From positions 62,001 to 126,000 of the forward strand of contig NCRC01000004.1 of NCBI GenBank assembly GCA_002894685.1: DNA of 64,000 bases, written 5' to 3'. Made by a program: the position numbers and the translations under genes. The stretch is from Salinivenus lutea. GTDB lineage: Bacteria; Bacteroidota; Rhodothermia; Rhodothermales; Salinibacteraceae. Shown here one piece after another: positions 35,216 to 52,621 of the stretch (its first letter is position 1; every line of letters begins with the position of its first letter). A model generated the notes under the pieces. It searched no databases, was not told where the DNA came from, and saw nothing but the letters and a program-made list of their open reading frames with translations.

Positions 35216-35986
35216 TTACGGCCGGGCCGTGCGGGACGTCGGCTCCAGTTTCAACAGCCATGCGTGGTCGGTCTCGTCCGGGAGCCACGCCCGGGCCGCA
35301 AGGGCCTCGTCCTCGGAGGCAAACTGGCCCACCACCACCCGGTAGGCCGGACTGCCCCGTCCGGTCGTGTCGACCACCACATCGGCCCGCAGGCCGCGCA
35401 GCCGGTGGTACAGCATCCGGTCGCGGGCCCGTTCTGCCCAGAGATCCGACGCAAGCACCCAGGTCACCCCGCCCGTCTCGTGCGTTACGCCGCCCCCACC
35501 GAAGAGCGCGGTGCGCGAGAACGTGACCCGACGTGCGGGGGCCGCCGTATCGTCCGGTCCGCGCTCATCAGAGGGCGCGGCGGCCTCCTCGGGGGCGGAC
35601 GCCGGAGCAGCAGACGTCGGCGACTCTACCCCTGCGTCTTCTCTCGGCACTTCCACCGTCACCTGGGCGGTGAGTGTATCGCGTCCCCGCTCATTTCGGG
35701 CCGTCACCATGAGGGTGTACGTGCCCGGACTCGTGTAGGCGTGCGACACGAGCGTCCCTACGGACAACGTGCCGTCACCAAAATCCCAGAGGTAGTTCAC
35801 GGGCCGCATCGACTCCGGGGCCACCTGTGCCCGGAAGTGCCCGACGCCCCCAGCATCGAGTGTCCGGGGGGCGGCAATGTCGACCAGGCGAACAGGACGA
35901 TCGGCCGAGGGCGCCGCCGTCTGCCCCACCGCGGACACGCCTGGGAGCAGACTCGCCAGAAACAGAAACAAGAATCGAAGGATCAT
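35216..35986 (-). CDS. secreted PKD-domain protein with C-terminal SPOR-like domain
   Basis: A 256-residue protein from ATG 35986. After a signal peptide (FLFLFLASLLPGVSA) a PKD domain is clear (NYLWDFGDGTLS, then VSHAYTSPGTYTLMVTARN). An Ala/Pro/Glu-rich linker (about 125-165) follows. The C-terminal 75 residues have the SPOR pattern (WVLASD ... VVVGQFASEDEALAARAWL), which in known proteins binds denuded peptidoglycan. Upstream Met codons to 36079 were rejected because the signal peptide would be internal. It lies 112 bases below the secretin gene on the same strand and might tether the secretin complex to the wall; this is inference. Confidence 0.78.
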   Translation of the reverse strand: MILRFLFLFLASLLPGVSAVGQTAAPSADRPVRLVDIAAPRTLDAGGVGHFRAQVAPESMRPVNYLWDFGDGTLSVGTLVSHAYTSPGTYTLMVTARNERGRDTLTAQVTVEVPREDAGVESPTSAAPASAPEEAAAPSDERGPDDTAAPARRVTFSRTALFGGGGVTHETGGVTWVLASDLWAERARDRMLYHRLRGLRADVVVDTTGRGSPAYRVVVGQFASEDEALAARAWLPDETDHAWLLKLEPTSRTARP

Positions 35987-36098
35987 GGGGACAGAGATCG
36001 GAGAATGAAAGACCCACGATGCTCTCATGTGTCTGCCTCGGGCCCGCCCCGCCGACGGGCCCCGAGTCAGAATCAGCACATGAGGAGCAGGGCCGCAG

Positions 36099-37484
36099 TT
36101 AGTTCTTGTCGTCGACCTTCGACGGCAGGACGTTCTCCGGGCCGAGGGTCTCGCTCGCCTCCGGGCTGAAGGTGCGCACGCGCTGCTCCACCTCGCGGCG
36201 ACGCTGCTCCAGCAGGTCCGTCGGGAGGTTGCGGCCCGCCCGCACAGAGACCGGATCGATCACTTCCGCCTGCAGCACGATGATGAGCTCGCGACGGGCA
36301 ATCGTCTTCGTTTCCCGACCGAACACGTAGCGAAGGCCGAAGAACCAGGGGGGCAGATCTTTAAGAATTGGGAGGCCGCGACGGCTCGTGGTGAAGTCGG
36401 TCGAGTACAGCCCGCCAATTGCGGTCTGCTCGCGGTTGAGAAGGAGGACCTGCGTTTCGGCCGTGTTGCGGTCCACCGCCACGCTGCTGCCAAACGGTCG
36501 GCCGCTGGAACGCTCCACCTTCACGTCGAGGTGAACGAAGTCGAGCGGCGTGCCGGCCGAGTCGGGCAGCGACTCCGTGATGAGGGTCGGCACGACGTCG
36601 ACAATAATGCCGGTCGAGATGAACTGGGTGATCGTGTTTCCGGCAAAGTCGCGCACCTGGATTGGAATGTCGGAGCCGATCTGGATGCGGCCCTGCTCCT
36701 CACTCTGTACCGAGACGCTGGGCTGGGCGAGGGTTTTGCCGATGCCGTCGTCTTCCAGGGCACGGAAGAACCGGGCCAGGTCGCCAAAGTCAATCTCCTC
36801 GGGCGCGGTGATCTCGTCGTTGTTGAAGAAGTCGCCGAGCGGCCCGCCCAGCTCACGCGGATTGAGCTTAAAGCGCGGCCGGTTCCCCGAATCGCCCGTG
36901 CCGCCCCCTCCGCCTCCCTGCTGTCCCTGGCCGTCCGGCGCAAGGAAGACACTCCAGTTGAGCCCCAGTTCGCGCACCCGCGACAGGTTCACCTCAAAGA
37001 GGAGCGCACTAATCTTGATTTCGGAGGTCCCCAGCGACGCCGGCATGATCTTCGTCGCCGTCGTCGCCGGCGCGGCCCGCTCGTCCCGATCCCTGCGGTC
37101 CGACTGGGACTCCTCTTCCTGCACAATAAAGTACCGCTCGGTCTCGCGGTAGGTGAGGCCCTGCGCCTGCAGCACGAGCTCGAACGCGTCGAAGAACTGC
37201 ATGCGCGTAACGGACACGCCAATGGCATCGCTGCGCGACTCGGGATCGATTACCTGCTTGCCCGTGACACTGGAAAAGATGGGGTTGATGAAGTCAATGA
37301 ACTGGTCGAACGGGGTCGTCGGGAGGAACGAGACGATCTGGTCCGGGGGAATGTAGGTGCGGAGCTGGCGCTGCGTCGGTTCCTGGGCCTGGGCCGGAAG
37401 GACCACGGCCCCGCCGAGCAGAACCACGCCGGCGAGAAGGCCGAGGGCAGCACGTAGACAAAGGAGAGCGTTGCGTGTGAACAT
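36099..37484 (-). CDS. pilQ: secretin of the type IV pilus / type II secretion family (PilQ/GspD-like)
   Basis: Outer-membrane ring through which the pilus or cargo passes. From ATG 37484 it is 461 residues. A signal peptide ends near VLPAQAQ. An STN/N0-like domain follows (FLPTTPFDQFIDFINPIFS ... FELVLQAQGLTYRETERYFIV). The secretin domain runs from about residue 195, with LAQPSVSVQSEEQGRIQIG, the VDVVPTLI strand and the conserved exit motif RGLPILKDLPPWFFGLRYVF and RRELIIVLQAEVI. It is short because most N1-type domains are missing. The last gene of the pilus block before the PKD-SPOR gene; the PilO-PilP-like gene ends 79 bases upstream. Confidence 0.9.
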   Translation of the reverse strand: MFTRNALLCLRAALGLLAGVVLLGGAVVLPAQAQEPTQRQLRTYIPPDQIVSFLPTTPFDQFIDFINPIFSSVTGKQVIDPESRSDAIGVSVTRMQFFDAFELVLQAQGLTYRETERYFIVQEEESQSDRRDRDERAAPATTATKIMPASLGTSEIKISALLFEVNLSRVRELGLNWSVFLAPDGQGQQGGGGGGTGDSGNRPRFKLNPRELGGPLGDFFNNDEITAPEEIDFGDLARFFRALEDDGIGKTLAQPSVSVQSEEQGRIQIGSDIPIQVRDFAGNTITQFISTGIIVDVVPTLITESLPDSAGTPLDFVHLDVKVERSSGRPFGSSVAVDRNTAETQVLLLNREQTAIGGLYSTDFTTSRRGLPILKDLPPWFFGLRYVFGRETKTIARRELIIVLQAEVIDPVSVRAGRNLPTDLLEQRRREVEQRVRTFSPEASETLGPENVLPSKVDDKN

Positions 37485-37563
37485 TGTAGAGAGGGAGAGG
37501 GGGTGCGGGGAGAAAGGACCGGCGCGCCCCTGATCGGCGCGCCGGGGAACAGCGATGGAGGGG

Positions 37564-38505
37564 TTAGTTCGTATCAATCGGCACGAGTTCAGAGTTGCCC
37601 TCGGCCTGCCGGTACGACGGCCGGGCGGCCTCCATCTGGATGTCGACCGTTTCGGTGCGCCCATCCTTCGTGAGGCTGGCGCGCACGACGACGTTGATGG
37701 GGTCGATGCGCTCGATGGTGCCGTACCGGACCGTAGACCCTTCGTAGACGATGTACTGCGTGGTGCCGTCCTGGAAGATGGCGCGGTTGCCGGCAATCGA
37801 CAACAGCGTGCCCCGCTCTACGTCGAGCCGATCGTCGTCGGCCGACCGTGGCGCCTGCACCCGCACGTGCGGGTAGAAGGAGTTGTCGGCCAGGGTGCGG
37901 GCGGGCAGATAGGCCTCGGGCACGCGGGCGAGTTCATCTCGCTCTGTGCTGAGGCCCTCGAGGCCCATAAAGTACGCGTCGAGCGTCATCGTGAAGCGGA
38001 CCATGTCGCGCCGGCTGCCGGTGCGGACGTCCTGCACCTCGGTGCGGCTCATGTTGAGGTCGCGGATTCGGTAGAACTCGGGGTTGTTCTCCATCGCCCA
38101 GATGAAGTCGTAGAGGTTCTGGTAGTAGCCAGTCCCGTCGACGCTGAACGTGTATCGGCTAACATCGGGCGCGGTCGTGACGCCCTGAAGGCGCATGTTG
38201 AAGGCCTCGAAGCCGGTGGCCGTGTGCCCTTCGAGGTACTCCACGATGTCGGGGGTTTCGAGGGCGGCGGGCACGTACCGGTAGCGGGCGTTCCATTTGC
38301 GGACGGTTTCCTCGGCCCGGTCGGCCGACATGTCGGCCTCCGCCAGCAGCTGGGCCACCTCGCCCTGTTGGCTCCGTGCGACCCGGCTCATGTCGTCGAG
38401 CCGCTGGCGAGCGGAGGGCTGGTACACTTCGGTGACGTAATAGCCGGCACCGGCGACGAGCACGAGAAGGCCGAGAAGAAGGAGGGTGTTACGGGTTGCG
38501 TTCAT
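37564..38505 (-). CDS. PilO-PilP-like fusion, type IV pilus alignment protein
   Basis: A 313-residue inner-membrane protein with one N-terminal helix (NTLLLLGLLVLVAGAGYYV), a coiled-coil segment (about 30-70) and a ferredoxin-like PilO-type domain (YYQNLYDFIWAMENNPEFYRI, RDLNM). The last about 110 residues resemble PilP/GspC homology domains: YIVYEGSTVRYGTIERIDPINVVVRASLT, the strand pattern that contacts the secretin. In proteobacteria these are two genes. Membership is based on these patterns, order between PilMN and secretin, and size. Fused PilO-PilP is an inference that structure prediction could settle. Confidence 0.72.
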   Translation of the reverse strand: MNATRNTLLLLGLLVLVAGAGYYVTEVYQPSARQRLDDMSRVARSQQGEVAQLLAEADMSADRAEETVRKWNARYRYVPAALETPDIVEYLEGHTATGFEAFNMRLQGVTTAPDVSRYTFSVDGTGYYQNLYDFIWAMENNPEFYRIRDLNMSRTEVQDVRTGSRRDMVRFTMTLDAYFMGLEGLSTERDELARVPEAYLPARTLADNSFYPHVRVQAPRSADDDRLDVERGTLLSIAGNRAIFQDGTTQYIVYEGSTVRYGTIERIDPINVVVRASLTKDGRTETVDIQMEAARPSYRQAEGNSELVPIDTN

Positions 38506-38554
38506 CTGAGGCGACGGGGCGGAAGGGGGCGAAAGGAAGCGGACGGGTGAACTC

Positions 38555-40285
38555 CTACGGCGTCGAGACGGTCTGCACGGGCGGCGGGGTGAGCGCCTCC
38601 TCCCGCAGCTTTTTGGTCACGTCCGGCAGTTCAATCTGGCGCGGCACGGTAATGACGAAGGGGTACGCGCGTGCCCCCTGGATGTCGGTAAACTTGAGCT
38701 CCTGTACCGTGCCGTCGAGGGCCCGGGTGAGGGCCGCCAGGTTGCTGCGCTTGAGCGCGTGGCCCTGCAGTTTGATGGTAGACGCGTCGATGCTCCAGTT
38801 GTCGAACCAGATGCCATCAATTTCGCCCGTCAGCTGGGACGTGCGCTCGATGGCCCGGCTCCACTCGTCGCTCCCCACGAGGAGCGAGTCGAGCACGTGG
38901 AGGGCGCGGGTGTACGTGCGGTGGACGGCGTTCAGGCTGTCGACGCGGACCTTCAGGGCCTCGGGCGTCAGCTTGGGCATCTCCACCGGGGTGAGGGCGT
39001 GGCGCTGCTGCACCTGGGCGATTTCCTGCTCGCGCTCCATGTAGCGCCACCCGAAGAAGAGGGCCACCGCAAAGAGAAGGGCGAGGACCGCCACGGTGTG
39101 CCAGGCGATGGCCGAGGGGGCTCGGCGCCGGGTGTGCGCGACGGCGCCGAAGAGGTTGACCGTGGGCGCGTGCACCATTCGCTGCGCGACCGCAAGGGCC
39201 AGCACCGCGTCCGGCGTGAGCGACACGTCGGTCCCGAGCGATACGTCCGCGTCCAGAAGGCCGTCGTGGAGGACGTGCACGGTGGCGTCGTCGTAAAAGG
39301 CCTCGAAGCGCTCGGCCAGGCGTCCGTCGCGGGGCCCGCCGGCCAGCAGGACGTGGTGGATGTCTTTGATTCGGTACTCGTCCTGGTGAAGGAGCACCCG
39401 GCTGCAAATCGTCTCCGCCGGATCGAAGGCCGTGAGCGAGCGGAGACGCTCAACGTGACGGAGCTCGGTGCCGGTTAGGAAGAGCAGCAGGGTGTCCTCG
39501 CTGCCCACCCGGACCACGGCGGTCGTCTCGTCCGACGCCGGGGAAATGCGCGTGGCCGCGAGGTGGGTGAGCAGGGAGGCCTCTGTGTCGAGCAGGCGGC
39601 CGGCAGTGTCGACCGTCTCGTCCGTTGCGGCCAGCGCCCGAAGCGTCGGGGTCACCGACTCCTGACGCGTAGGCACGAGCGCGAGGACCCGCCGATCCGA
39701 CCCGTCGGACGCCATGGGGACGAACGCCACGCGATCGGCGTCGAAGGGGGCGTCGTAGGCAGCGCGGAGGGCGTCGAGGAGGGCGCGCTGCTCGTTGCTT
39801 GTTCGGGAGGCGAGGGCGGCGGCCTGCTCCCAGAAGGTTTGGGGTTCCACCGCCGCGGCCGATACGGTCAGTTCGACGTACGCCACGTCGGGCGTGTCTA
39901 CACAGAACGCAAGGTCCGGCCGGTCGCCCGTCTTTCGCTGGCACTCTGCAAGGATCTCGCGGAGCTGGGCGGTAAACAAGGTGGCGGTGCCCCCGGACGC
40001 ATCGTCTTTTTGGAGCGACCGGAGCAACGGGTCGTCCAGGTCGAGGTCGTTGTCTCCAGTGCCCACCTCCAGCGTGAAGTCCGCCTCGTCGCTCGTTTTC
40101 ATGCCGGGGAGCACGTCCGAAAAATCATCGGACGTGGTGGCGCCGCCCGAGCGGAGGCGCGGGCGCACCATGCGGTGGAGCACCTTGTCGCCCGTGTCGG
40201 ACGTGCGGAGGAGCACCGCTTCGATGGTGTCGGGCGTGAGGGACACGCCCAGGACCGTGCGGGGGGAAGAGTCGGAAGAGGCCAT
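38555..40285 (-). CDS. PilM-PilN-like fusion, type IV pilus assembly
   Basis: A 576-residue protein. Residues about 8-370 form an actin-like ATPase fold as in PilM (start TVLGVSLTPDTIEAVLL, central FCVDTPDVAYVEL, LLDTEASLLTHL, then HHVLLAGGPRDG). A membrane helix at about 393-412 (WHTVAVLALLFAVALFFGW), a coiled coil and a PilN-like C-terminal domain (GIWFDNWSIDASTIKLQGHA) follow. In other T4P systems cytoplasmic PilM binds the N-terminal tail of PilN, so a fusion would hard-wire that contact. It lies 35 bases below pilT and 49 bases above the PilO-PilP-like gene. Confidence 0.78.
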   Translation of the reverse strand: MASSDSSPRTVLGVSLTPDTIEAVLLRTSDTGDKVLHRMVRPRLRSGGATTSDDFSDVLPGMKTSDEADFTLEVGTGDNDLDLDDPLLRSLQKDDASGGTATLFTAQLREILAECQRKTGDRPDLAFCVDTPDVAYVELTVSAAAVEPQTFWEQAAALASRTSNEQRALLDALRAAYDAPFDADRVAFVPMASDGSDRRVLALVPTRQESVTPTLRALAATDETVDTAGRLLDTEASLLTHLAATRISPASDETTAVVRVGSEDTLLLFLTGTELRHVERLRSLTAFDPAETICSRVLLHQDEYRIKDIHHVLLAGGPRDGRLAERFEAFYDDATVHVLHDGLLDADVSLGTDVSLTPDAVLALAVAQRMVHAPTVNLFGAVAHTRRRAPSAIAWHTVAVLALLFAVALFFGWRYMEREQEIAQVQQRHALTPVEMPKLTPEALKVRVDSLNAVHRTYTRALHVLDSLLVGSDEWSRAIERTSQLTGEIDGIWFDNWSIDASTIKLQGHALKRSNLAALTRALDGTVQELKFTDIQGARAYPFVITVPRQIELPDVTKKLREEALTPPPVQTVSTP

Positions 40286-40320
40286 GGAAGGGAACAGTCG
40301 AAGGGGGAACGGAACGGGGG

Positions 40321-41580
40321 CTATTTCAGGAGTTGCAGTAGGCGCCGCTTGTTGTTGGCGTAGCTCATCGCCACGTCGAGCGTGATGTCGCCGTTGCGCA
40401 CGAGGCGGGTCAGGTCCTGCTCCAGCGTGGTCATGCCCTGGTCGGTGCCCTGCCAGATCATCTGGTAGATCTCGCCTACGTTGCCGTTTTTGATGGCGGC
40501 GCGGGCGGACGGAATCATCCAGAGCACTTCCTTGGCGAGCACGCGCCCGCCGCCCACGGCGGGGAGCAGCTTCTGCGAGACCACGCAGCGGAGCACGTCG
40601 GCGAGGCGGTGGCGCACCCGGTCCTGCTCTTCGGTCGGGTACTCGGCCACAATGCGGTCGATGGTTTCGATGGCGCTTCCGGTGTGGAGGGTAGAGAACA
40701 CCTTGTGGCCGGTGTCGGCCATCTCCATCGCCGTCGAGATCGTCTCCGGGTCACGCATCTCTCCGACCACGACGACGTCGGGGTCCTGGCGCAGGCCCTG
40801 CACCATGCCATCGACAAAGCTGTCGACATCGGTCCCCACCTCGCGGTGGCGCACGATGCACTTTTTGGAGGTGTGAATGTACTCGAGCGGCTGGGCGACA
40901 ATCAGGACGTGGCCCTCAATGTCCTGGTTGTTGGCGTCGACGATGGCGTCGAGCGTGGTGCTTTTTCCCGAGCCGGTCACTCCCGTAAAGAGCGTCAGGC
41001 CGTCGCGCACGTAGCGGAACATGAAGCCGCGCTCGATGAGGGGGTGAAAGCCGAGGGAGCGCAGGGGGCGCGGGGTCCACGCCAGCATGCGCATTGAGAG
41101 CGCGAGGTGCCCCTGATCGAAGTAGACGGTGGTGCGGAAGCGGCGGTCGGCCTCGTCCTCGTCGACGGCCAGCGAATAGCCGAAGTCAACGGCGAAGTGG
41201 TCCAGGAGCTGCTCCAGTTGGTGCGGAGCGAGGAGAACAACGAGGAGTACGTCGGCCTCATCCATCGAGAGGCGCCCGCAGTCGGGGTACACTTCTTTGC
41301 GGCCGTCGACCCGGTACCAGATCTGCTCGTTGGCCGCGGGGCCGCCGAGGTCGAGGTCCGAGGCGTTCAGGTCCATCATCCGGCGGGCCAGCTCCGCAAA
41401 CTGGGCGCGGCCCGCCTCGCGGTCGGCCTCGCCAAGGGCCTGAACCTGCTCGGCGTACCAGCGGACCCGGCGGGGGCCGTCGAGGTCCTCGGGGGCGCGC
41501 TGCGCGAGGGCGCGAAGGGCAACCGGAAGATCGATCGGGGCGGCGGACGCGACGTCAGAAGTGGAGGGAGAGAGCGTCAT
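40321..41580 (-). CDS. pilT: PilT-like twitching-motility ATPase
   Basis: Hexameric ATPase that powers pilus retraction. The 419-residue protein shows the Walker A GVTGSGKSTT (about residue 203), an Asp box, the Walker B segment DPDVVVVGEMRDPETI, the His box FSTLHTGSAIETIDRI and, further on, SARAAIKNGNVGEIYQMI, the counterpart of the PilT AIRNLIRE motif. It has no tetracysteine zinc site, unlike the PilB-type gene. The N-terminal 110 residues are more divergent than usual. Gene order inside the pilus block supports a retraction motor. PilU is a possible alternative assignment. Confidence 0.9.
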   Translation of the reverse strand: MTLSPSTSDVASAAPIDLPVALRALAQRAPEDLDGPRRVRWYAEQVQALGEADREAGRAQFAELARRMMDLNASDLDLGGPAANEQIWYRVDGRKEVYPDCGRLSMDEADVLLVVLLAPHQLEQLLDHFAVDFGYSLAVDEDEADRRFRTTVYFDQGHLALSMRMLAWTPRPLRSLGFHPLIERGFMFRYVRDGLTLFTGVTGSGKSTTLDAIVDANNQDIEGHVLIVAQPLEYIHTSKKCIVRHREVGTDVDSFVDGMVQGLRQDPDVVVVGEMRDPETISTAMEMADTGHKVFSTLHTGSAIETIDRIVAEYPTEEQDRVRHRLADVLRCVVSQKLLPAVGGGRVLAKEVLWMIPSARAAIKNGNVGEIYQMIWQGTDQGMTTLEQDLTRLVRNGDITLDVAMSYANNKRRLLQLLK

Positions 41581-41639
41581 CTATGGGCGTGATAGGGGTG
41601 AAGGGGCTGACCCAATATCGTCGGCCCGGGTCGCGTGCC

Positions 41640-41703
41640 CCCTATCCAGTGGCCCGAGTGGAGTGCGCCGCATTTTCTTCCCGGATAGGGAGGTTTGGCG
41701 CAC
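41640..41703. promoter_or_regulatory. interleaved inverted repeats upstream of pilT
   Basis: Two inverted repeats interlock in the 135-base gap before pilT: CCCTATCC (41640-41647) with GGATAGGG (41683-41690), and GTGCGCC (41663-41669) with GGCGCAC (41697-41703). The sequence GAGGTTTGGCGCAC (41690-41703) recurs exactly at 48721-48734 upstream of the pilin. Either a regulator site or an intra-operon RNA structure is possible. Confidence 0.45.
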
Positions 41704-41715
41704 CGGTGGGCCTCG

Positions 41716-43080
41716 TTATGACGTTGTGACCGGCCGCTCCGGCCACTCCAAATAATCGAGCAGGAAGACGCCGGTGGGGACATTGTAATCGTATCCCGGA
41801 TCTTTCACCGTCTCGGACGCCTCAGTGTACCACAGCTTGTTGTTGCCGTTAAACGTCATCGACTGCTTCGAGACCACGCTTCCGATGACGTTGACTTTAT
41901 TCCCCCCTCCATTAAAGGTGACCGCGCCGTTGGCGTGGATGAGGGCCGCGACGGAGACGTTGCCGTTAAAGTTGACATTTCCTGCCACGTAGACGGCCAT
42001 GGACGACCCTTCCGGCAGGTGCTGAGCAATCCAGTTCTGGATGACCGTGTCGGGCTGCTTACTGTTAGGGGCATCAGCGTATGTGGGAGTCATCGTTCCG
42101 TCGCCCTGAAAGGTGAGGTTGCCGTCCACGTAGAGCTTGATGTGTCCCTGAGGGGCGCCCGTCCCGATCGCGCGGGGCAGACGAAGGTCCCCGCTCATTA
42201 CCATGTTGCCCCCAACATACCAGATAAAGGGATCCTCGGGCGTTCCCTTCCCCGACAGTGAGTTCGGCGCAAGAGTCGCATCGAGCCCGTCCGTCAGGTT
42301 GTCCCACAGGCTTGCCCCCATCGTGAAGGTTCCGGACGGGGGACTCGTAATTGCGTGCGCCGTAGCGGCGGCCGCCGATACATTCACTGTCGGGACGTAC
42401 ATTGGGTCGTACTGGTACGTCGTGCCCGACGCAGAGGGGTCGGGCTGATTCGGCTGAAAGAACGCGGTATTTTTGCCGGTGTACTCCTCACTGTAGGTGC
42501 CGTAGCCTTCAACCACGAAGTTGACGGGCGAGCCCTGCGCATCGAGGTCCTGATTCGCGTGCACGTCCGCATTCGTCGTGGAAGACGACGAGCGGATCTT
42601 GGGCGACCCGTTGAACCGGAGGGTCTGATCGGAAACGAGGGCCGTACGGAGCGCCGGGGGCACGCCGATATTGGTGATGCCCTTCGTGTAGGTCGCCTGA
42701 ATCGTGTAGTCGCGGTCCTGATAGGTGCCGACCGCCCGCACGTCGAGCGTGTCGTCCACGATGGGCAGGCCAGGGACAACCGCGGCCGCTCCCGGACGAT
42801 AATTGCGGAGGTTCACCTGATAGGTTGCCTGCGTGCCGTACCCGGCGTAGCTCGTAGCGGGAATGTTGAAGGTGCTGGTCTGGGCCCACTCATCTGGACG
42901 GTCCACCAGGTCCCGGATGACGCGGTCGAGGCCCACGAGCGCAGTTTCCCGCGCGAAGGCCTCCTGCTGTTTCACCGTGAGGGCGGAGTCGCTCTGATTG
43001 GTGGTCGTCTGCGAGTTGAAGAGAAGAACGCCCACCGTAAGGGTCGCCATGAGGACGAGAATGAGAGAACTTTGTCCCAT
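41716..43080 (-). CDS. large pseudopilin-like protein (PilX-like), beta-rich
   Basis: A 454-residue protein from ATG 43080. It begins MGQSSLILVLMATLTVGVLL, a hydrophobic helix almost at the first residue, then a Gln/Thr/Ser linker and an amphipathic helix (QEAFARETALVGLDRVIRDL) as in minor pilins. The C-terminal 250 residues are beta-rich, with repeated N-x-x-F-N-G-x-x-x patterns (VYVAGNVNFNGNVSVAALIHANGAV...) resembling a small beta-helix. Its first codons and 5' leader (ACTCCTCC-A-ATGGGACAA) closely match those of the pilin gene at 48495. It may be a tip adhesin or minor pilin; upstream in-frame codons to 43494 overlap the next gene and were rejected. Confidence 0.75.
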   Translation of the reverse strand: MGQSSLILVLMATLTVGVLLFNSQTTTNQSDSALTVKQQEAFARETALVGLDRVIRDLVDRPDEWAQTSTFNIPATSYAGYGTQATYQVNLRNYRPGAAAVVPGLPIVDDTLDVRAVGTYQDRDYTIQATYTKGITNIGVPPALRTALVSDQTLRFNGSPKIRSSSSTTNADVHANQDLDAQGSPVNFVVEGYGTYSEEYTGKNTAFFQPNQPDPSASGTTYQYDPMYVPTVNVSAAAATAHAITSPPSGTFTMGASLWDNLTDGLDATLAPNSLSGKGTPEDPFIWYVGGNMVMSGDLRLPRAIGTGAPQGHIKLYVDGNLTFQGDGTMTPTYADAPNSKQPDTVIQNWIAQHLPEGSSMAVYVAGNVNFNGNVSVAALIHANGAVTFNGGGNKVNVIGSVVSKQSMTFNGNNKLWYTEASETVKDPGYDYNVPTGVFLLDYLEWPERPVTTS

Positions 43081-43124
43081 TGGAGGAGTCGGTCTAAGAA
43101 GTGAATGGGGGCATCCCCCGCGAA

Positions 43125-43814
43125 CTATGGCGCGTAGCGCGTAAGATTGGGCGGCCGGACGATGCCGTTGAAGCGCGTCTCGTCGACGTGTTGCTTCATC
43201 CCTCCAAGGTGCTCGGTCTCTCCCCCACCCAGGGGCGACACGCCGCGCACATGCACCCCAAGCTGGCGCACCTCCGCGTAATTGGGCGTGGTGCTCCCAT
43301 TGTCCCGCCGGAGGTCGATGTGAAACTCCGTAAGGGAGGCCATGCTGGCACTGGTCTCCGTGCCGCCCGTGCAGTCGGCAGGCGACGTGGGGTTCACCCG
43401 GCGCACAATACGAAAGGTCGGCTTCTCCTCGTACCCCCCGGCGGCGGGATCGCGAACGTACGCTGTCTCCCCCGTCAGCTCTCGCCGATAACACACGACG
43501 TCGGGCCCCGGCTTGGGAGCGAAGGACAGGGAATCCGCGTAGGTCCGAAAGGCAAATGCCTCCGTTGTATCGCCCGTCGTCGCGTACGTAACGATCGCTT
43601 CCCCCGTCTCAATGTCCGCATTCGGCACCCCGGCCCCCACGTTGTGGAGGTCGACTTGAAGCTGACGAACAAAGTCCACCATCTGGGACTTGGCAGCGTA
43701 GTACTGCACGCCGTCGATGGCGGCCTCTTGGCCCCGGAACTGCGTAAAGGCGATGATGAGAAGCACCGTGCTTCCGATTACGACCGCCGCAAGATTGTCA
43801 AGGAGGACCTGCAT
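43125..43814 (-). CDS. pseudopilin-like protein (PilW-like)
   Basis: A 229-residue protein with a hydrophobic helix at residues 9-25 (AAVVIGSTVLLIIAFTQF) preceded by only eight residues. An amphipathic extension follows (YYAAKSQMVDFVRQLQVDLHNVG) and then a beta-rich globular part with two Cys (about 107 and 149). The VRQLQVDLHNVG pattern and size fit PilW-type minor pilins or GspJ-like pseudopilins. No prepilin-peptidase motif (G before F/M-T-L-x-E) is present. It is placed between two other pilin-like genes with gaps of 20-45 bases, so it belongs to the pilus operon. Exact subclass is uncertain. Confidence 0.68.
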   Translation of the reverse strand: MQVLLDNLAAVVIGSTVLLIIAFTQFRGQEAAIDGVQYYAAKSQMVDFVRQLQVDLHNVGAGVPNADIETGEAIVTYATTGDTTEAFAFRTYADSLSFAPKPGPDVVCYRRELTGETAYVRDPAAGGYEEKPTFRIVRRVNPTSPADCTGGTETSASMASLTEFHIDLRRDNGSTTPNYAEVRQLGVHVRGVSPLGGGETEHLGGMKQHVDETRFNGIVRPPNLTRYAP

Positions 43815-43834
43815 GTCGTTCCAGAAAGGAGAGG

Positions 43835-44413
43835 TTAGAGCGCGGGGCAGAGCCCGTTGCCCGAGTAGGGGATATATGCCGCCTTGGTCACGGTGTCGTA
43901 CTCAAACACCCGCTGCATTCGCACCTCGACCGGCGTGTCCGGCGTCTTGATGAACAGAAACGGACTCGAAATCGTGAGGGTGACCTCTTTCGCAAAAGTG
44001 GGCACCGCACTCGGCGCGAGGGTCACAGGGTCTACGTAGGTCACCGCAATGTCGACGAGGAACGGAATGTCGTCTCGGTCGATCGGAACGTCGGTCATGC
44101 CGTCAAACCCTTCGATGTACGCGCTGCCCGCATAGCTTCCGGCGGGCACAAATGACGCTTCGGGCGTAAACACATCCGCACTCGTCGTGCGACCGCACGT
44201 GGGGAACGTCGTTTGCGTGTCTACGACGAATTTGTCGAAGGCGACGCCGGCCCGACCGATGTGATCAAAGACCTCAACGCCCACTCCAGTTACCTGCGTG
44301 GTTACCTCATTGAGAATGTGACGCTGCTGGGTACTGGTCGTCCCCTGGTGCATGCTAAGGGCCAGCATGGAGACCAGAGCGAGGGCGACAAGTCCATATA
44401 TGGTTTGAGCCAT
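43835..44413 (-). CDS. pseudopilin-like protein (PilV/minor pilin-like)
   Basis: A 192-residue protein starting MAQTIYGLVALALVSMLALS, again with a hydrophobic helix almost at the N-terminus. It continues with a Thr/Gln-rich polar helix (RHILNEVTTQVTGVGVEVF) and a beta-rich domain. Three Cys are not visible as a conserved loop, but one lies near the end (GNGLCPAL), suggesting a terminal disulfide with Cys at TFPTCGR. No family motif is recognised with certainty. It sits 33 bases below the PilB-like gene and 20 bases above the PilW-like gene in the operon, which is the main argument for a minor-pilin role. Confidence 0.62.
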   Translation of the reverse strand: MAQTIYGLVALALVSMLALSMHQGTTSTQQRHILNEVTTQVTGVGVEVFDHIGRAGVAFDKFVVDTQTTFPTCGRTTSADVFTPEASFVPAGSYAGSAYIEGFDGMTDVPIDRDDIPFLVDIAVTYVDPVTLAPSAVPTFAKEVTLTISSPFLFIKTPDTPVEVRMQRVFEYDTVTKAAYIPYSGNGLCPAL

Positions 44414-44446
44414 GGATGTGAAGGATGCGGCTCCGTGGAGCTGGGC

Positions 44447-46420
44447 TTAGTCGGTGGAGACGACCCGGAGGAGTTCGTCGATGCTGGTGTCGCCGCGCTT
44501 CACCACCTCGCGGGCGGAGGCGAGAAGCGTGAGCATCCCCTCCGCAATCGCAGTATCGCGAATGGCGTCCTCATCGATTGACTCTTCTGACTCAACAATG
44601 AGGTGTCGAATGGCGCGGGAGAAGTATAGGGCCTCGGCGATGGCCTGCCGGCCGCGGTAGCCGCTTCCGGCGCACTTGCGGCACGAGCGGTTCTCCCCGG
44701 CGCGGTAGAAGTCAGTCTCGCGCATCTCGGCATCCGAGAATCCCAGTTCACGGAGCAGCACGGGGTCGGGCGATGGGTCGACCTGGCGGCAGGCCGGGCA
44801 CAGGGTGCGCACGAGGCGCTGGGCCACGATCAGGTTGATGGCGTACGCGATGAGGAAGGGCTCCACGCCCATCTTGTAGAGGCGGCTCACGGCGCTGGGG
44901 GCGTCGTTGGTGTGGAGCGTGGAGAACGTGAGGTGGCCGGTGTTTGCCAGCTTGATGGCCAGCTCGGCGGTCGGGCGGTCGCGCATCTCTCCCACCATCA
45001 CGATGTCGGGGTCGTGGCGCAGGATGGAGCGCAGGGCGTCCTCCAGGTGGAGGCGCGGGCCGAGCTTAATCTGCCGGGCCCCCGGAAGGATGTATTCCAC
45101 CGGGTCCTCGACCGTCAGCACGTTGCGCTGCGGATCGATGACCGAGTGGAGGGCGGCGGCGAGCGTGGTGCTCTTGCCCGAGCCGGTGGGGCCGGTCATG
45201 ATGACCATGCCGTGCGGCTGCGTGATCGCCTTCTCGAAGCGCGCGAGGGCCTCCGATTGCAGGTTAATCTGGCGCAGGTCGGTAAAGACGCGGCGGTCGT
45301 CGAGCACACGAATCACGATGCTTTCGGCCTTGACCTCTCGGCTGGTGTCGGCCAGCGGGAGCACCGACACGCGGTAGCGGATGAGGCTGCCGTCGACCGT
45401 ACGCTGAATGTAGCCGTCCTGGGCAATTTCGCGGTCGAAGCGGTCGACGTTCAGGCAGCGGTCTTTCACCACGGCCAGCATGGCCTCGGGGTGCACCTTG
45501 TCCTGGGTGTGCCAGAGCTGCAGCATCCCATCGACGCGCATGTGGATTTCGGTCTCGCGGGCCGGGCTGGGAAACACGTGGATGTCACTCGCCCCCATCC
45601 GCACGGCCTCCACGAGGGCGGCCTCGAACAGGTTGATGAGCGAGGAGCGGTTGATTTCGGCCTCCAGTTGCTCCTCGTCCACGAGGCCCCGGTCGCGCTC
45701 CTCGTAGGAGGCGCCCAGGTCGAACGAGCTGGCCTGCTCGTCGGCCTCAATGCGCTCGAGGTACTCGTTGCGGCGGGGGTAGAGCTCGTCGAGCAGGGGC
45801 GCCACAATGGCCTCCGGCGCGTACCGCAGCTCAAAGTGGGCGAGGCCCACGTCGTGGGCAATCTGGTAGAGCTCGGGGCGGGTGGGATCGTACGTGGCAA
45901 AGACGAGGCGGGAGATGCCGCGCTGCTCGTCCCGCTCCTCGCGGAGCGGCAGCAGGCGCATGGCCAGCAGCTTGTCCTGGTCCGGCCGGTCGAACTGCTC
46001 GATGACGCGGCGCACGAAGTCGGCGTTGATCTGGTCGGGGTCGACCACCTCCTCGCGGAAGGCGTAGATGCGGGCCGCCTCGGCAAAGACGAGGGTGCGG
46101 TCCACGGTCGGGTGCTTGGCCAACACGCGCCAGAGGGCCGTCCGCTCGCCGGTGCGGGTCCATTCGGCGTGCGTCTCGCGGGCCTCCTGCGGCGTAATCG
46201 ACTGGGCGCGGAGGAGCGCCGTTACCACACGGTCGCGCTGCAGGGCTGCGGGGAGCTCGTCCGTCGCGGCGGCCTTCCCATTACGTGACAGCGCGCCGAC
46301 GGGCGAATCGACCGACAGATCGTCGGTGTCGCCCGGGCGGCCGTCGCCCCCCGTCGCCCCGGTCTCAAGAAAGACGAATCCCTCCTCGTCCCGGTACGTG
46401 TTCACGTCTTTGTCGCTCAT
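44447..46420 (-). CDS. pilB: PilB/GspE-type assembly ATPase
   Basis: Hexameric ATPase that drives pilus extension or secretion. The 657-residue protein has an N-terminal MshE/GspE-N-like region (ITPQEARETHAEW), then the core with FPSPARETEIHMRVDG, Walker A GPTGSGKSTT (near residue 410), Asp box, Walker B DPDIVMVGEMRDRPTA and the His box FSTLHTNDAPSAVSRL. A tetracysteine zinc site, absent from PilT, is present: CPAC and, after 37 residues, CRKC. This marks it as the assembly rather than retraction motor. The PilC gene stops 22 bases upstream. Confidence 0.95.
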   Translation of the reverse strand: MSDKDVNTYRDEEGFVFLETGATGGDGRPGDTDDLSVDSPVGALSRNGKAAATDELPAALQRDRVVTALLRAQSITPQEARETHAEWTRTGERTALWRVLAKHPTVDRTLVFAEAARIYAFREEVVDPDQINADFVRRVIEQFDRPDQDKLLAMRLLPLREERDEQRGISRLVFATYDPTRPELYQIAHDVGLAHFELRYAPEAIVAPLLDELYPRRNEYLERIEADEQASSFDLGASYEERDRGLVDEEQLEAEINRSSLINLFEAALVEAVRMGASDIHVFPSPARETEIHMRVDGMLQLWHTQDKVHPEAMLAVVKDRCLNVDRFDREIAQDGYIQRTVDGSLIRYRVSVLPLADTSREVKAESIVIRVLDDRRVFTDLRQINLQSEALARFEKAITQPHGMVIMTGPTGSGKSTTLAAALHSVIDPQRNVLTVEDPVEYILPGARQIKLGPRLHLEDALRSILRHDPDIVMVGEMRDRPTAELAIKLANTGHLTFSTLHTNDAPSAVSRLYKMGVEPFLIAYAINLIVAQRLVRTLCPACRQVDPSPDPVLLRELGFSDAEMRETDFYRAGENRSCRKCAGSGYRGRQAIAEALYFSRAIRHLIVESEESIDEDAIRDTAIAEGMLTLLASAREVVKRGDTSIDELLRVVSTD

Positions 46421-46442
46421 GGAGATGGGGGAGAGAGAAGGG

Positions 46443-47801
46443 TTAGTTTTTGAACATGATGTCCGAGGTCGTGGGCTGAATCAGCGCCGACTCGGCGGAC
46501 ACAATCGTGAGGATCGCCACCATGATGGAGATGACCACGGCGGTGGCCGTCTTGATGCCCTCCACCGTGGTTTCCAGTTTCAGGGTGGTTTCCTTCTCGT
46601 AGAACTCGCCCATCTCGTTGGCGCTCTCGCGCACGGAGCCGGTCTCGGCGCCGGTGCGGAAGCGGGCCAGCACCATAGGCGTGAACACTTCGGCGGCCTC
46701 CATCGCCGCAATGAGGTCGGTGCCGCGCGCCATCATGAGGGGCACGGTCACCGTCTTCACCTGGTGCTCGATGTAGGTGTTGCCCGTGGCCTCGGCGGCG
46801 ATTTTCATGACCTCCTGGTTCTCGCCCGCGCCGGTGTAGAGCACACCGAACACGCGACAGAACACCTCCAGGTTGAGCTTGTGCAGCAGCGGCCCAATGA
46901 AGGGCAGCCGGATCATGTATTTGTGGATGAGAAACTTGCCCTTCGTGGTCTGCGACCAGGCAATGAACGCGCCAGTGGCCACCACGAAGACGCCGACCAC
47001 CCACATCCAGTACTGGTCCATCCACCCGGCAAACGCCAGCGAGGCGGAGGTCAGCGGGGGCAATTCGATGTTGTAGTTGACGAAGAGCCCCGCGTAGGAG
47101 GGAATAATGTACCAGATGTACCACACGAACGCCGCGATCGTCGCGAGAAGCGTGATCGCCGGCGTGATGAGGGCGCTGCGGACGTTCTTTTTGAATTCGT
47201 CCTTGCGCTCCAGGTACTTGGCGGTCGCCTCGAACATCCCGGCCATGTTGCCGCTGGAGGCCGCGAGGCCCAGCATGTAGGCGGTAAACTTGCCCAGCAC
47301 GTGCTGGTGCTTCATGAACGCGTTCTGGGCGTTCATGCCGCTCTTGAGGTCGGCCTGCAGGTCGCGCATCATCTGGCGGAGCGGCGCACTCGTGGCGTCG
47401 GCGATGAGGAGCGTGAGCACCTCGTCGAACGGCAGCTGTCGCTTGAGCATGTTGGCCGCCAGGCGTACGAAGAGCACGATGTCGGTGCTCGACGGCTTCA
47501 TCTGGAAGTCCAGCAGCTTCTTGTCCACCTTCAGGACTTCGAGCCCCATCCGCTCCAGGGCGGCGTGCACTTCCTGCGGGGTGTAGGCCTTCTGCTCGCC
47601 CTTTACGACGGCGCCGGCCGCGGTGCGCACCTTGTACCGGTAGGTGCGGCGCTGCTCAACGAGGTCGGGGCGAAACTTGTGCTTCTCGGAGAGGTCGGCG
47701 ATGCGGCGATTTGCGGCGCGCTTGCTGGGGGCGAAGACGGTGCCGCGGACCGGATCGCCGATGGTGTTGACCCCGCTGAATCGATATTCTCGGACGGGCA
47801 T
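46443..47801 (-). CDS. pilC: PilC/GspF-type inner-membrane platform protein
   Basis: Polytopic platform around which the pilus is assembled. The 452-residue protein has the N-terminal YRFSGVNTIGDPVRGTV domain, then two GspF domains. The first starts VLFVRLAANMLKRQLPFDEVL, the second FCRVFGVLYTGAGENQEVMKI. Three membrane segments are seen, at about 224-245, 270-293 and near the C-terminal end. The first GspF repeat carries the ML-x-x-x-LPF motif and the second the G-x-x-x-x-E-V pattern. Length is slightly above the usual 400. The pilin gene and its terminator lie 256 bases upstream. Confidence 0.94.
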   Translation of the reverse strand: MPVREYRFSGVNTIGDPVRGTVFAPSKRAANRRIADLSEKHKFRPDLVEQRRTYRYKVRTAAGAVVKGEQKAYTPQEVHAALERMGLEVLKVDKKLLDFQMKPSSTDIVLFVRLAANMLKRQLPFDEVLTLLIADATSAPLRQMMRDLQADLKSGMNAQNAFMKHQHVLGKFTAYMLGLAASSGNMAGMFEATAKYLERKDEFKKNVRSALITPAITLLATIAAFVWYIWYIIPSYAGLFVNYNIELPPLTSASLAFAGWMDQYWMWVVGVFVVATGAFIAWSQTTKGKFLIHKYMIRLPFIGPLLHKLNLEVFCRVFGVLYTGAGENQEVMKIAAEATGNTYIEHQVKTVTVPLMMARGTDLIAAMEAAEVFTPMVLARFRTGAETGSVRESANEMGEFYEKETTLKLETTVEGIKTATAVVISIMVAILTIVSAESALIQPTTSDIMFKN

Positions 47802-47993
47802 GGACGGGGGCGAGGGAAGCGAGTGAAGGGGGATGTGGGGGCTGATTCTCGCGGGGCGGCGCGAGTCCTTCGGCTTCAGGTGGACCGCCCGGCGGGAAGC
47901 ACCCTCCCGGAAAACCCAAGTGCACTCTGGTCAAGGTGCCGACCGGCTCAGGTCGAAGAGTTTCGCAGTAAGGATCGCTTTATTTCTAACAAG

Positions 47994-48032
47994 AAGCGGT
48001 CCCCTTGCGGGTTACTACCGCGGGGACCGCTT
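47994..48032 (-). terminator. hairpin terminator of the pilin gene
   Basis: AAGCGGTCCCC (47994-48004) and GGGGACCGCTT (48022-48032) form a perfect 11-bp stem, with a small GCGG/CCGC stem nested in the loop. It begins 26 bases after the pilin stop. On the minus strand a moderately T-rich stretch (CTTGTTAGAAA) follows. It would separate abundant pilin mRNA from the downstream assembly genes. Confidence 0.7.
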
Positions 48033-48057
48033 CGATTGTCAGATCAGTCTGGTAGGA

Positions 48058-48495
48058 CTACTCCGTGTAAGTGCCGAGTTCCACGATGGCGCCATCAATA
48101 TCTGCGTCAGTCAAACCGGTCACTGTCGCCGTAACCTCGTTGAGAAGCACATCGTTTATGCAAGTGACTGTCAGGCCTGCAGCGGTGACACTGCCGATAG
48201 AGCACTCTCCGTTGAGCGTCTCATATTTGCCATCAGTATTGACTGTGTAGCCGAGGTTGGCGAGGGTGACGGCGGTTGTCCCGTCGGTGAACTGACCATA
48301 GGTAGCTGGACCACCGAACGGTTGCGCCTTCTGGGCCCATGCCTGGGCGTCAGAAGCGATGCGGACCGCGTCGTTCAACATGGCGTCCGCGTTGGACTTG
48401 ACGTTATTTTGCGAGAAGGCCTGGATGCCGACGACCGTGGCGATGCCGACGATGACCGTAGCGAGGACGAGAAGGAGAAGTTGTTGTTGTCCCAT
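48058..48495 (-). CDS. type IV pilin-like major subunit with minimal leader
   Basis: A 145-residue protein starting MGQQQLLLLVLATVIVGIAT: a two-to-five residue polar start, then a hydrophobic helix (5-25), a helical extension (NADAMLNDAVRIASDAQAWAQ) and a small beta domain. Cys98 and Cys112 could form a D-region disulfide loop as in type IV pilins. A canonical leader with Gly-Phe cleavage and Glu5 is missing. It is the only gene of the block with its own strong terminator and has a long upstream region with phased repeats, both expected for a highly expressed major pilin. The assignment rests on architecture and context. Confidence 0.75.
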   Translation of the reverse strand: MGQQQLLLLVLATVIVGIATVVGIQAFSQNNVKSNADAMLNDAVRIASDAQAWAQKAQPFGGPATYGQFTDGTTAVTLANLGYTVNTDGKYETLNGECSIGSVTAAGLTVTCINDVLLNEVTATVTGLTDADIDGAIVELGTYTE

Positions 48496-48828: not shown

Positions 48829-50091
48829 TCACGCCCCAGAGGCTTCCCTGCCCCTTTCTTCCTCTGGGGCCGACGGCCGCAGCGCATACACCGCCCCGCC
48901 GGCCGTGAGCCCCGCCACGCCCGCCGCGACATAGAACACGGCGTCGATGCCGCCCCACACCAGCGCCGCGCCCATCAGCAGCGGCCCCACGGCCTCCCCC
49001 ACCCGCAGCACCATCCCGTTCAGCGACAGGACCACGCCGCGGGAGGCGTCCGAGGTCAGCTCCGTGAGGCGCGTCTGCAATGCGGGCTGGTTGAGCCCCT
49101 GCGCCACGCCAAAGAGGAGCGCCGCCCCTCCTACCCCCCAGGGCCCGGGCACGAGCGGCATACACGCCAGCGCGGCGCCGTCGAGGAGCAGCGAGAATTG
49201 GATGAGGCGGCGCGGAGCAAACCGGGCGGACAGGCGGCCCATCTGCGTCGCCACGCCCCCGCTCGACACCGACGCGGCGGCCAGCACGGCGCCGGCCACC
49301 GTCGAGGCCGCCCCGAAGCGGGCGTCCAGCAGCTCGGGCACGTACGTGACGAACGCCCCGAAGAGCAGGACGAACACCCCCAGGTTCACCGCCAGGAGCC
49401 CCACCACGCGACGGTCCGTGAGCCGGTCGCGCGCCACGGCGCGGTAGTCGGCGAGGGTGTGCGCACGCTGGAGCGGCGGCGGATCGAGCCCCCAGGCCAC
49501 CGCCGCCGCCACGGGCAGCGCCAGGAGCGGAAGCGCAAACGGCCAGAACCAGGCGATGGCGGCGAGCGCCCCGCCGAGTGCCGGGTATAGGGCCGTGCCC
49601 ACGTTGAGGGCCGAGGCGTTGTAGCCCACCGCGGCGGCCCGCGCCACTCCGTCGTACCGGTCGCCGATCATGGTGACGGCGAGTCCTACGAGGGGGGCCG
49701 CGGCGGCCCCCTGCACTGCCCGCAGGGCCAGCAGCAGCGGGAACGACCGCACCAGCGCGCACGCCCCGCCCGCCAGCCCAAACACCACCAGCGTGGGCAC
49801 CAGGACCCGCTTCCGCCCCACCCGGTCGGCCAGCACGCCCGCAATCGGGGCGCTCAGGATGCCCGGCAGGGCGTAGGCCGTCACCACCCACCCGACCGCT
49901 CCCCGCGACACCCCGAGCGCGTCTTCGAGGAGGGGAAACGAGGGGGCCACGCTCGACACGTTGCCCACCGCCACGACCGTCACGCCGAAGAGCAGCCAAA
50001 GGCCCGGGTCGCGGAGCGGGACCGTAGGGGCGGGCGTTCCTTCCGCCTCCCCCGCCCCGGTCTCGTCCGACGCCTCCTCAGGGCCGACCAT
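48829..50091 (-). CDS. major facilitator superfamily drug/metabolite exporter
   Basis: A 420-residue inner-membrane protein with about 12 hydrophobic segments. After an acidic cytoplasmic N-terminus the first helix begins LWLLFGVTVVAVGNVSSVAP. The loop 2-3 motif GVLADRVGRKRVL (MFS motif A, G-x-L-x-D-R-x-G-R-K/R) is clear, and motif C-like GYNASALNVGTALYPALGGAL occurs in helix 5. This is the DHA1-type efflux pattern. Substrate cannot be told. Stop and start codons are 47 bases apart from the amylase gene on the same strand. Confidence 0.88.
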   Translation of the reverse strand: MVGPEEASDETGAGEAEGTPAPTVPLRDPGLWLLFGVTVVAVGNVSSVAPSFPLLEDALGVSRGAVGWVVTAYALPGILSAPIAGVLADRVGRKRVLVPTLVVFGLAGGACALVRSFPLLLALRAVQGAAAAPLVGLAVTMIGDRYDGVARAAAVGYNASALNVGTALYPALGGALAAIAWFWPFALPLLALPVAAAVAWGLDPPPLQRAHTLADYRAVARDRLTDRRVVGLLAVNLGVFVLLFGAFVTYVPELLDARFGAASTVAGAVLAAASVSSGGVATQMGRLSARFAPRRLIQFSLLLDGAALACMPLVPGPWGVGGAALLFGVAQGLNQPALQTRLTELTSDASRGVVLSLNGMVLRVGEAVGPLLMGAALVWGGIDAVFYVAAGVAGLTAGGAVYALRPSAPEEERGREASGA

Positions 50092-50138
50092 GTCCGTCCT
50101 GCCTCATCCCAGGAACCAGTGCCAGAGAGCCGCCCCCC

Positions 50139-51545
50139 CTACTCGACAGAGAGGATGCGGTAGCCGTACGGCCCGAGCTCCATCGCATCGCCCGAGATAT
50201 CTTCCCCAGTCGTCGCGTCCACGAGCGTCGCGTCAGTGTACTCGGCCGGCACGTCCACCGTCGCCGCCTCGCCGCGCACATTCACGGCCAGCAGCATCTC
50301 TTCCTCCTCAGCGCTGCGGGTGTACACGAGCACGTCCTCCGCGTCCGGCGTGAGCACGTTCAGTTCTCCGTGTTGCAGGGCGGGGCTATCACGATAGAGC
50401 GAGAGCTGGGAACGGAAGAAATCCGTAAGCGCCGCGTCCTGCTCCCAGTCGTAGGGCGTGCGGGCGAAGAACGAAACCGTGTCCTGCACCCCTAGCTCCT
50501 GTCCGTTGTAGACGAGCGGCACGCCCGGCAGGGTGGACGCCAGAACGAACGCTGCCTTCGAGCCCTCGACCCCGTCGAAGAGTTCGGGCGGCGGGGCGTC
50601 CCACATCGTCTCGTCGTGGTTCGTGGTAAAGCGCATCCGCCTCCCGTCCCCAGGCAGGGCGTCGAGGGTGGAGTCGACCTGGCTCGCGAGCGTCCCCACC
50701 GGTCGATCCTCGGACCACACGCGCTTCAGCCGGTCGTAGAAGGGCCAGGCATAGGTCAGATCGAAGCCCACCTCGTGCATTTCAGGTTCGGCCGCCTCGG
50801 CCAGCATCATCACCGGCTTCACGGCCTCCACCGAGTCGATGGCCGCGTCCCAGAAGTCCGAAGGCACCGCCCCGGCCACGTCCGCCCGATAGCCGTCGAT
50901 GTTGAACTCGCGCACCCAGTACTGCATGGCATCGATCATCTCCTGCCGGGTGCGCGGGTTGTCGTAGTCGAGGTCGACCACGTCGGTCCAGTCGGTCGTG
51001 TCGCCGTTCATCACAGGCACCGTGAAGCCGTTGATCGGCCCGTCGGTGTACATGTCGGGGTGCTCCTCCAGCCAGGGGTGGTCCCAGGCCGTGTGGTTGG
51101 CCACGAGGTCGATGATGATGTGCATGTCGCGGGCGTGCACCGAGTCGACGAGGGCCTGAAAGTCCGCCTTCGTCCCGTAGTCGGGGTTGACGGCCCGGTA
51201 GTCCTTGATGGAGTACGGCGAGCCGAGCGGCCCAATCTCACTCTTGCGCCGCTCCTCCCCAATCGGATGGATGGGCATGAGCCAGAGCGTGTTGATGCCC
51301 ATTTCTTCGATCTCGTCGAGGCGACCGATGAGCCCCCGAAAGGTGCCCTCCTCCGAGGCATCCGGGATAAACACCTCGTAGATCGTGGCGTCCTGCACCC
51401 AGGCGGGCTCCCCCACTCCCTCAATGGCATCCGACTCGGGAGCCGGGGACTCGGCGGATGGGCCGCAGCCCATCACAAGCCCGAGAGTGAGAGCGGCGGC
51501 GAGCGTGACAGCAAGCAACGAGCGGGACATGGCGAACAAGCGCAT
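50139..51545 (-). CDS. lipoprotein alpha-amylase (GH13)
   Basis: A 468-residue secreted enzyme with a lipobox-ending signal peptide (LTLGLVMGC), so anchored in the envelope. The GH13 barrel is complete: DLVANHTAWDHPWL (region I), GYRADVAG with the nucleophile Asp, MMLAEAAEPEMH with the acid Glu, and FTTNHDE with the third Asp. A short C-terminal beta domain follows (LLAVNVRGEAATV). Starts at 51545 (MRLF) or 51530 (MSRS) are both possible; neither has a clear ribosome site. It probably cleaves alpha-glucans outside the inner membrane and may act with the other GH13 gene at the left edge. Confidence 0.92.
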   Translation of the reverse strand: MRLFAMSRSLLAVTLAAALTLGLVMGCGPSAESPAPESDAIEGVGEPAWVQDATIYEVFIPDASEEGTFRGLIGRLDEIEEMGINTLWLMPIHPIGEERRKSEIGPLGSPYSIKDYRAVNPDYGTKADFQALVDSVHARDMHIIIDLVANHTAWDHPWLEEHPDMYTDGPINGFTVPVMNGDTTDWTDVVDLDYDNPRTRQEMIDAMQYWVREFNIDGYRADVAGAVPSDFWDAAIDSVEAVKPVMMLAEAAEPEMHEVGFDLTYAWPFYDRLKRVWSEDRPVGTLASQVDSTLDALPGDGRRMRFTTNHDETMWDAPPPELFDGVEGSKAAFVLASTLPGVPLVYNGQELGVQDTVSFFARTPYDWEQDAALTDFFRSQLSLYRDSPALQHGELNVLTPDAEDVLVYTRSAEEEEMLLAVNVRGEAATVDVPAEYTDATLVDATTGEDISGDAMELGPYGYRILSVE

Positions 51546-51636
51546 TGGGAACCAGCAAGCGAGAACCGAGGGTCGTCTCGTCCCCCCCAGTATAGGAGAC
51601 CGTGTCCTTTTCGTCCATCCCCCGGGGCTTTTCCCC

Positions 51637-52533: not shown

Positions 52534-52621
52534 GACCCCCTTCGTGTCGAACAAAACCGAATGCTGGCACGGATATGTTCGCCGATCCTCCTTGTTTTTG
52601 GGACCGCCGGGCACCGGTGAG

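Follow-up and report, generated by a model that had tools for sequence, protein, structure and literature searches.

The type IVa pilus, as known from Myxococcus, Pseudomonas and Thermus, is made by the proteins PilABCDTMNOPQ. The prepilin peptidase counts as a key component of type IV filaments (PMC6668835), and peptidase and class III signal peptide together are regarded as core (PMC6668835, PMC4471445). Cleavage of the leader leaves an ordinary pilin without a cytoplasmic domain, and Glu5 mutants of ordinary pilins lose homopolymer assembly (PMC4471445). The MSH pilus locus has no prepilin peptidase of its own; MSH loci occur in genomes whose other filament systems encode one (PMC6668835). 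The putative type II secretion system of Cytophaga hutchinsonii is encoded in a cluster that includes the Peptidase_A24 gene CHU_3197 (PMC5553014). The pil genes of Melioribacter roseus were read as an incomplete set (PMC3534657). The literature searched (preprints and most subscription papers lay outside it) contained no report of leaderless pilins, or of a type IV pilus that works without a prepilin peptidase.

Here, the window is the whole stretch of 64,000 nucleotides of Salinivenus lutea DNA that was analysed. It contains a block of ten genes, all on the minus strand and arranged head to tail, that runs nearly contiguously from 48495 to 36099 (Table 1). We consider it likely that this locus encodes a complete type IVa-like machine, probably a retractable one, whose major and minor pilins are leaderless and need no prepilin peptidase.

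Gene content of the block

An earlier note, made from the letters alone, had described the block as pilin, pilC, pilB, three minor pilins, pilT, PilM-PilN, PilO-PilP and secretin, and all of these genes are present where it placed them. The note had also remarked that the secretin has few N-domains; indeed, Pfam gives only a weak STN match ahead of the secretin core. The secretin likely starts at ATG 37484, from which the translation has a signal peptide, and not at 37796. The Walker A, Asp-box and His-box motifs are intact in both PilB and PilT. When gene order was surveyed across the phylum, as the note had suggested, the same order recurred in more than 20 loci. It is common to Rhodothermia, Ignavibacteria and other Bacteroidota, and the arrangement is therefore not due to chance.

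Table 1. Genes of the pilus block, in order of transcription (positions in the window)
Gene product	Position	Strand	Length and evidence
Major pilin	48058..48495	-	145 aa, MGQQQLLLLVLATVIVGIA..., leaderless; in-frame stop 5 codons 5' of ATG
PilC/GspF inner-membrane platform	46443..47801	-	452 aa; Pfam T2SSF 6.6e-26, NCBIfam PilC/GspF, conserved family
PilB/GspE extension ATPase	44447..46420	-	657 aa; Pfam/NCBIfam; Walker A, Asp box, His box, two CxxC
Minor pilin 1	43835..44413	-	MAQTIYGLVALALVSML..., leaderless; position and homologues with like start
Minor pilin 2	43125..43814	-	MQVLLDNLAAVVIGSTV..., leaderless; homologues with like start
Minor pilin 3	41716..43080	-	454 aa, MGQSSLILVLMATLTVG..., leaderless if start is ATG 43080; weak DUF7305 match
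PilT-family retraction ATPase	40321..41580	-	419 aa; TIGR01420 306 bits against curated cut-off of 319; motifs
PilM-PilN fusion	38555..40285	-	576 aa; actin-like domain, TM helix about 395-431, PilN-like periplasmic domain
PilO-like protein	37564..38505	-	313 aa; conserved C-terminal domain in PilP/GspC-HR position, PilP part putative
Secretin (PilQ/GspD type)	36099..37484	-	about 461 aa; Pfam/NCBIfam; one weak STN domain and secretin core

Two flanking regions deserve mention. A gene for a protein with PKD and SPOR domains (35216-36079, minus strand) begins 20 bp after the secretin gene; its product is a possible envelope-anchoring accessory, and it was not found at the other loci examined. 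Upstream of the block, 48829-52614 (minus strand) encodes an MFS transporter, an alpha-amylase and a PAP2-superfamily protein, none of which has an obvious connection to a pilus.

The note had proposed that two pairs of normally separate proteins are fused here. For the first pair this is borne out. The AlphaFold2 model of the 576-residue protein (mean pLDDT 73.7) is predicted to have the actin-like PilM fold, with Pseudomonas aeruginosa PilM as its best Foldseek match (E=1.4e-13) and GspL cytoplasmic domains also among the matches. A profile of 17 homologues of the same protein matches Myxococcus PilN (E=5e-12). Taken together, the two results show PilM and PilN joined in a single chain. No pilN or pilO gene on its own was seen in the block. 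Homologues of 505-680 aa are likewise fused in 16 further loci. This fusion is not the main novelty, because GspL of type II secretion has the PilM-plus-PilN architecture in one chain as well. In Roseithermus (G179; L043:3504-6342, the same locus as L088), the PilM half and the PilN half are encoded by distinct ORFs with about 840 bp between them; this genome is complete and contains a second locus. The separation may be an insertion, decay or a real split.

The second pair, PilO-PilP, stands in its first half. The family of the 313-residue protein matches Pfam PilO (best 1e-8, in two members), a PilO in the PDB (E=0.0013) and the NCBIfam GspM model (5e-4), which supports a PilO/GspM-like N-terminal part. 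At the C-terminus, about 100 residues make up a conserved domain where PilP, or the HR domain of GspC, would stand. Searches of the PDB and Pfam with this domain gave no PilP, and the Pfam PilP model matched none of the PilOP proteins; that model matched just one of 14 control genomes, so its silence here says little. Since sequence searches gave no confirmation, we infer PilP from position only. The NCBIfam IcmG/DotF model matched 3 of 17 PilOP proteins (best 1e-6).

The GspL-like fusion, the GspM-like match and the PilB profile scores, which are equal as GspE and as PilB (NCBIfam), would all suit a secretion system with a short pseudopilus instead of a surface pilus. This is unlikely, although it is the strongest of the competing explanations. 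A PilT-family ATPase is encoded in most complete loci, and PilT, according to PMC4471445, was known only from type IVa pili. Further, tandem similar pilin genes suggest a major subunit. A pseudopilus would, in any case, leave untouched the claim that the subunits are leaderless.

Leaderless pilins and the absent prepilin peptidase

The ORF of the block's pilin reads stop-T-T-P-P-M-G-Q-Q-Q-L-L-L. With the in-frame stop so close to MGQQQ, there is no room for a leader. A like start is found in 150 pilin ORFs from 121 loci (136 MGQQQ, 8 MGSQQ, 3 MGTQQ and 3 others), in which the median distance between the ATG and the in-frame stop 5' of it is 4 codons. In 145 of the 150, no possible start precedes the methionine of MG or MA. 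Of the 134 distinct pilins, 132 have Gly at residue 2 and the other 2 have Ala; an acidic residue occurs within positions 1-24 in only two, and a basic residue within the first 8 positions in only one. The commonest start is MGQQQLLL, from which the hydrophobic helix begins at once, without Glu5. Thus, the class III signal peptide, with its leader ending in Gly and its Glu5, is absent from the pilins of the block.

In sequence, these proteins are only weakly linked to known pilins. Alignments with mature PDB pilins, themselves weak, place Q4 at mature position 1, L8 at the position of Glu5, and the conserved G17 at Gly14; this register is suggestive only. The AlphaFold2 model of the pilin (pLDDT 93), with a helix at residues 2-54 and four strands, would have the layout expected of a pilin. 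A Foldseek search of the PDB with that model gave no significant match.

The minor pilins between pilB and pilT (for example, MAQSFFALLALVL, MWFIFDNLNALIVGG and MGKAILLAVTAVV) also start at the helix, or a few residues from it, in nearly all of the loci that have them. For minor pilin 3 of the block, the frame is open 5' of ATG 43080, so the choice of start rests on homology. Eleven regular-expression matches to canonical prepilins in the leaderless loci were read as chance or unrelated ORFs.

Such pilins would have no use for a prepilin peptidase, and none is found. The earlier note had seen no prepilin peptidase in the window, and the same is true genome-wide (3.55 Mb, 99.6% complete): neither PF01478 nor PF06847 matched, PF06750 gave no credible match (9.8 bits), and a profile built from 12 divergent peptidases found nothing. 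As a control, the divergent profile was applied to eight genomes from the phylum in which other filament systems are present but PF01478 finds no match. It matched seven of the eight (E<=7e-14), and these genomes were therefore dropped as a counter-example of filaments without PF01478. The same profile gave nothing below 0.001 in 22 genomes that have the leaderless system, 12 of them single-contig. Flavobacterial-type divergent prepilin peptidases of about 150-170 aa (L192, L193, L194, L209-L214) are matched weakly or missed by PF01478; these short proteins are a trap for surveys of presence and absence. We propose that the enzyme is dispensable because neither the major nor the minor pilins are made with a class III leader. 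Leaderless pilins thus explain the missing enzyme, and this is the central point that the earlier note missed.

One might instead suppose an ultra-short leader, such as MG/QQQ, cut by a peptidase that is non-homologous to the known ones or too divergent to be recognised. Here, the near-invariant Gly2 would correspond to the Gly-1 of ordinary prepilins, and leaders can indeed be shortened in some systems (PMC4471445). Known leaders, however, have 6-26 aa (PMC4471445). The minor pilins begin MAQ, MQV, MQQ or MGK, with no common Gly, the operons showed no conserved gene for a multi-TM protein, and the known and divergent peptidase profiles alike match nothing. An ultra-short leader is therefore improbable.

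Still less can be said for true starts at non-standard codons further upstream, with the ORF calls being artefacts and a leader present after all. An earlier in-frame start does exist in five of the 150 ORFs, but these five extensions are mutually unalike, the stop lies 0-7 codons upstream in most cases, and conservation sets in exactly at the Met. Mis-annotation of the start codon is nearly excluded by these observations.

Distribution of the leaderless system

Among 392 genomes of the phylum (completeness of at least 90%), the leaderless pilin is found in 136 (E well below 1e-10) and the PilC in 137, with both in 135. No PF01478 peptidase is found in 121 of the 136 carriers. The carriers span 23 families of the phylum (in an anonymised taxonomy). 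The system also reaches Calditrichota, so the suggestion that the architecture is lineage-specific does not hold. Carrier contigs with names include those of Salinivenus iranica, Salinibacter altiplanensis, Kryptonia, Ignavibacteria and Calditrichota. An identity of 98% in PilC ties the window to Salinivenus. Roseithermus sacchariphilus has two leaderless loci and no PF01478 in a complete genome. MGQQQ pilins occur in three Calditrichota loci; a peptidase is present in two of those three genomes.

Fifteen genomes have both the leaderless system and PF01478, and eight of these were opened. In all eight, a single stretch of 20 kb contains both the peptidase and another, different PilB and/or PilC, and in five there are ordinary prepilins at this second system (MKWIQSIKKEEG/FTLPELLIVLVIIGIL, for example, of the EEG/FTLPELL type). 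In a quick PilB tree, the eight PilBs linked to a peptidase fall separately from those of the leaderless systems, a result that does not extend to a single origin of the latter; the neighbouring paralogues L052 and L075 carried wrong labels in this tree, from the score cut-off. Second systems in the same cells therefore keep leader and peptidase, in contrast to the block's system, which has neither.

Several variants were seen beside these. The genome studied here has a second leaderless copy outside the window (G000 contig C19:38165-48500, or L041:8165-18500), with two MGQQQ pilins, a PilC (54% identical), PilB, three minor pilins and PilT. An extra PilB-like ATPase gene adjoins the leaderless pilin genes at L052:6207 and L075:11782. 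At L056:6759, L057:6857 and L062:7381, the place between pilB and pilT that minor pilins otherwise take is occupied by a conserved gene of about 168 aa (DYIKKFLKEPPLLLRNFHYEDVLEFLQLG). In two genomes without PF01478 (G120 and G004), a divergent PilB/PilC pair forms a second locus together with genes for leaderless proteins like minor pilins (L067:5858-9743, L068:314-3971); no PilA, PilT or secretin was seen near this locus.

The pilin and PilC of the system are absent from one genome of the same genus (G323) and one of the same family (G309); the system is thus lost in places. These two relatives and an interrupted copy of PilMN might suggest a degenerate, non-functional relic that had lost its peptidase, but this is rejected: the operon is full, the ATPase motifs are intact and the pilin N-terminus is near-invariant across 23 families, which argues for purifying selection.

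Proposed assembly without a leader, and comparison with known systems

How, then, might leaderless pilins be assembled? The N-terminal helix would take the pilin into the inner membrane. A protein with Gly or Ala at position 2 is a substrate of methionine aminopeptidase, and the mature N-terminus should therefore be GQQQLLL, once deformylase and the aminopeptidase had taken off the Met. Translation itself would then yield nearly the form that leader cleavage gives elsewhere. PilB and PilC would polymerise the pilin by way of the PilMN/PilOP bridge and the secretin; disassembly of the filament would fall to PilT. Because mutants at Glu5 of ordinary pilins show that the N-terminus matters, leaderless pilins must have another solution; the conserved cluster of Gln probably takes over the role of Phe1 and Glu5, replacing registration between the N-terminal amine and Glu5. 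For the group as a whole, we somewhat favour the view that a broad branch in Bacteroidota and Calditrichota has leaderless pilins matured by methionine aminopeptidase, with Gly-Gln-Gln-Gln registration in place of methylated Phe1 and Glu5. Against the proposal stands the N-in topology, which is unaccounted for where there is no positively charged leader and Lys/Arg follow the helix. ComEC is present in the genome, which makes DNA uptake one possible function; adhesion or twitching are others.

If a large natural group works with neither leader nor peptidase, then neither leader cleavage nor N-methylation would be inherently necessary for assembly, and what Glu5 and the N-terminus do could be tested directly. 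Pilin finders based on the prepilin leader would miss these pilins. The existence of such a group would also explain why its pilus gene sets have been called incomplete, and the present result suggests that pilA of Melioribacter roseus may be present but leaderless.

Compared with the type IVa pilus, the block has homologues of PilB, PilT, PilC, the secretin and PilM/N/O, together with pilin-like subunits and several minor pilins. Thus, both ATPases, the platform and secretin, and the alignment complex of PilM, PilN and PilO are all present. In contrast to the type IVa pilus, it has no class III leader, no Glu5 and no prepilin peptidase encoded in the genome; it joins PilM and PilN in a single chain, its PilO has a fused C-terminal domain, and its secretin is small. 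By its gene content, the block would function as a type IVa pilus does, yet it lacks two of the features by which that pilus is defined, the prepilin leader and the peptidase. With type II secretion, it shares the fused cytoplasmic actin-like and periplasmic domains of GspL, a GspM-like part in its PilO and homologues of GspE, GspF and GspD, but it differs in having PilT, no GspO and leaderless pilins. The Cytophaga system, from the same phylum in the wide sense, likewise has divergent PilM/N/O/P-like genes in one cluster (PMC5553014), but peptidases of the flavobacterial type, which the divergent profile recovers, are absent here. The MSH locus resembles the block in lacking its own peptidase (PMC6668835), whereas most genomes with the leaderless system have no peptidase at all. 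Judged by its sequences, the system would best be placed in the type IV filament superfamily, as a variant that is new and widespread.
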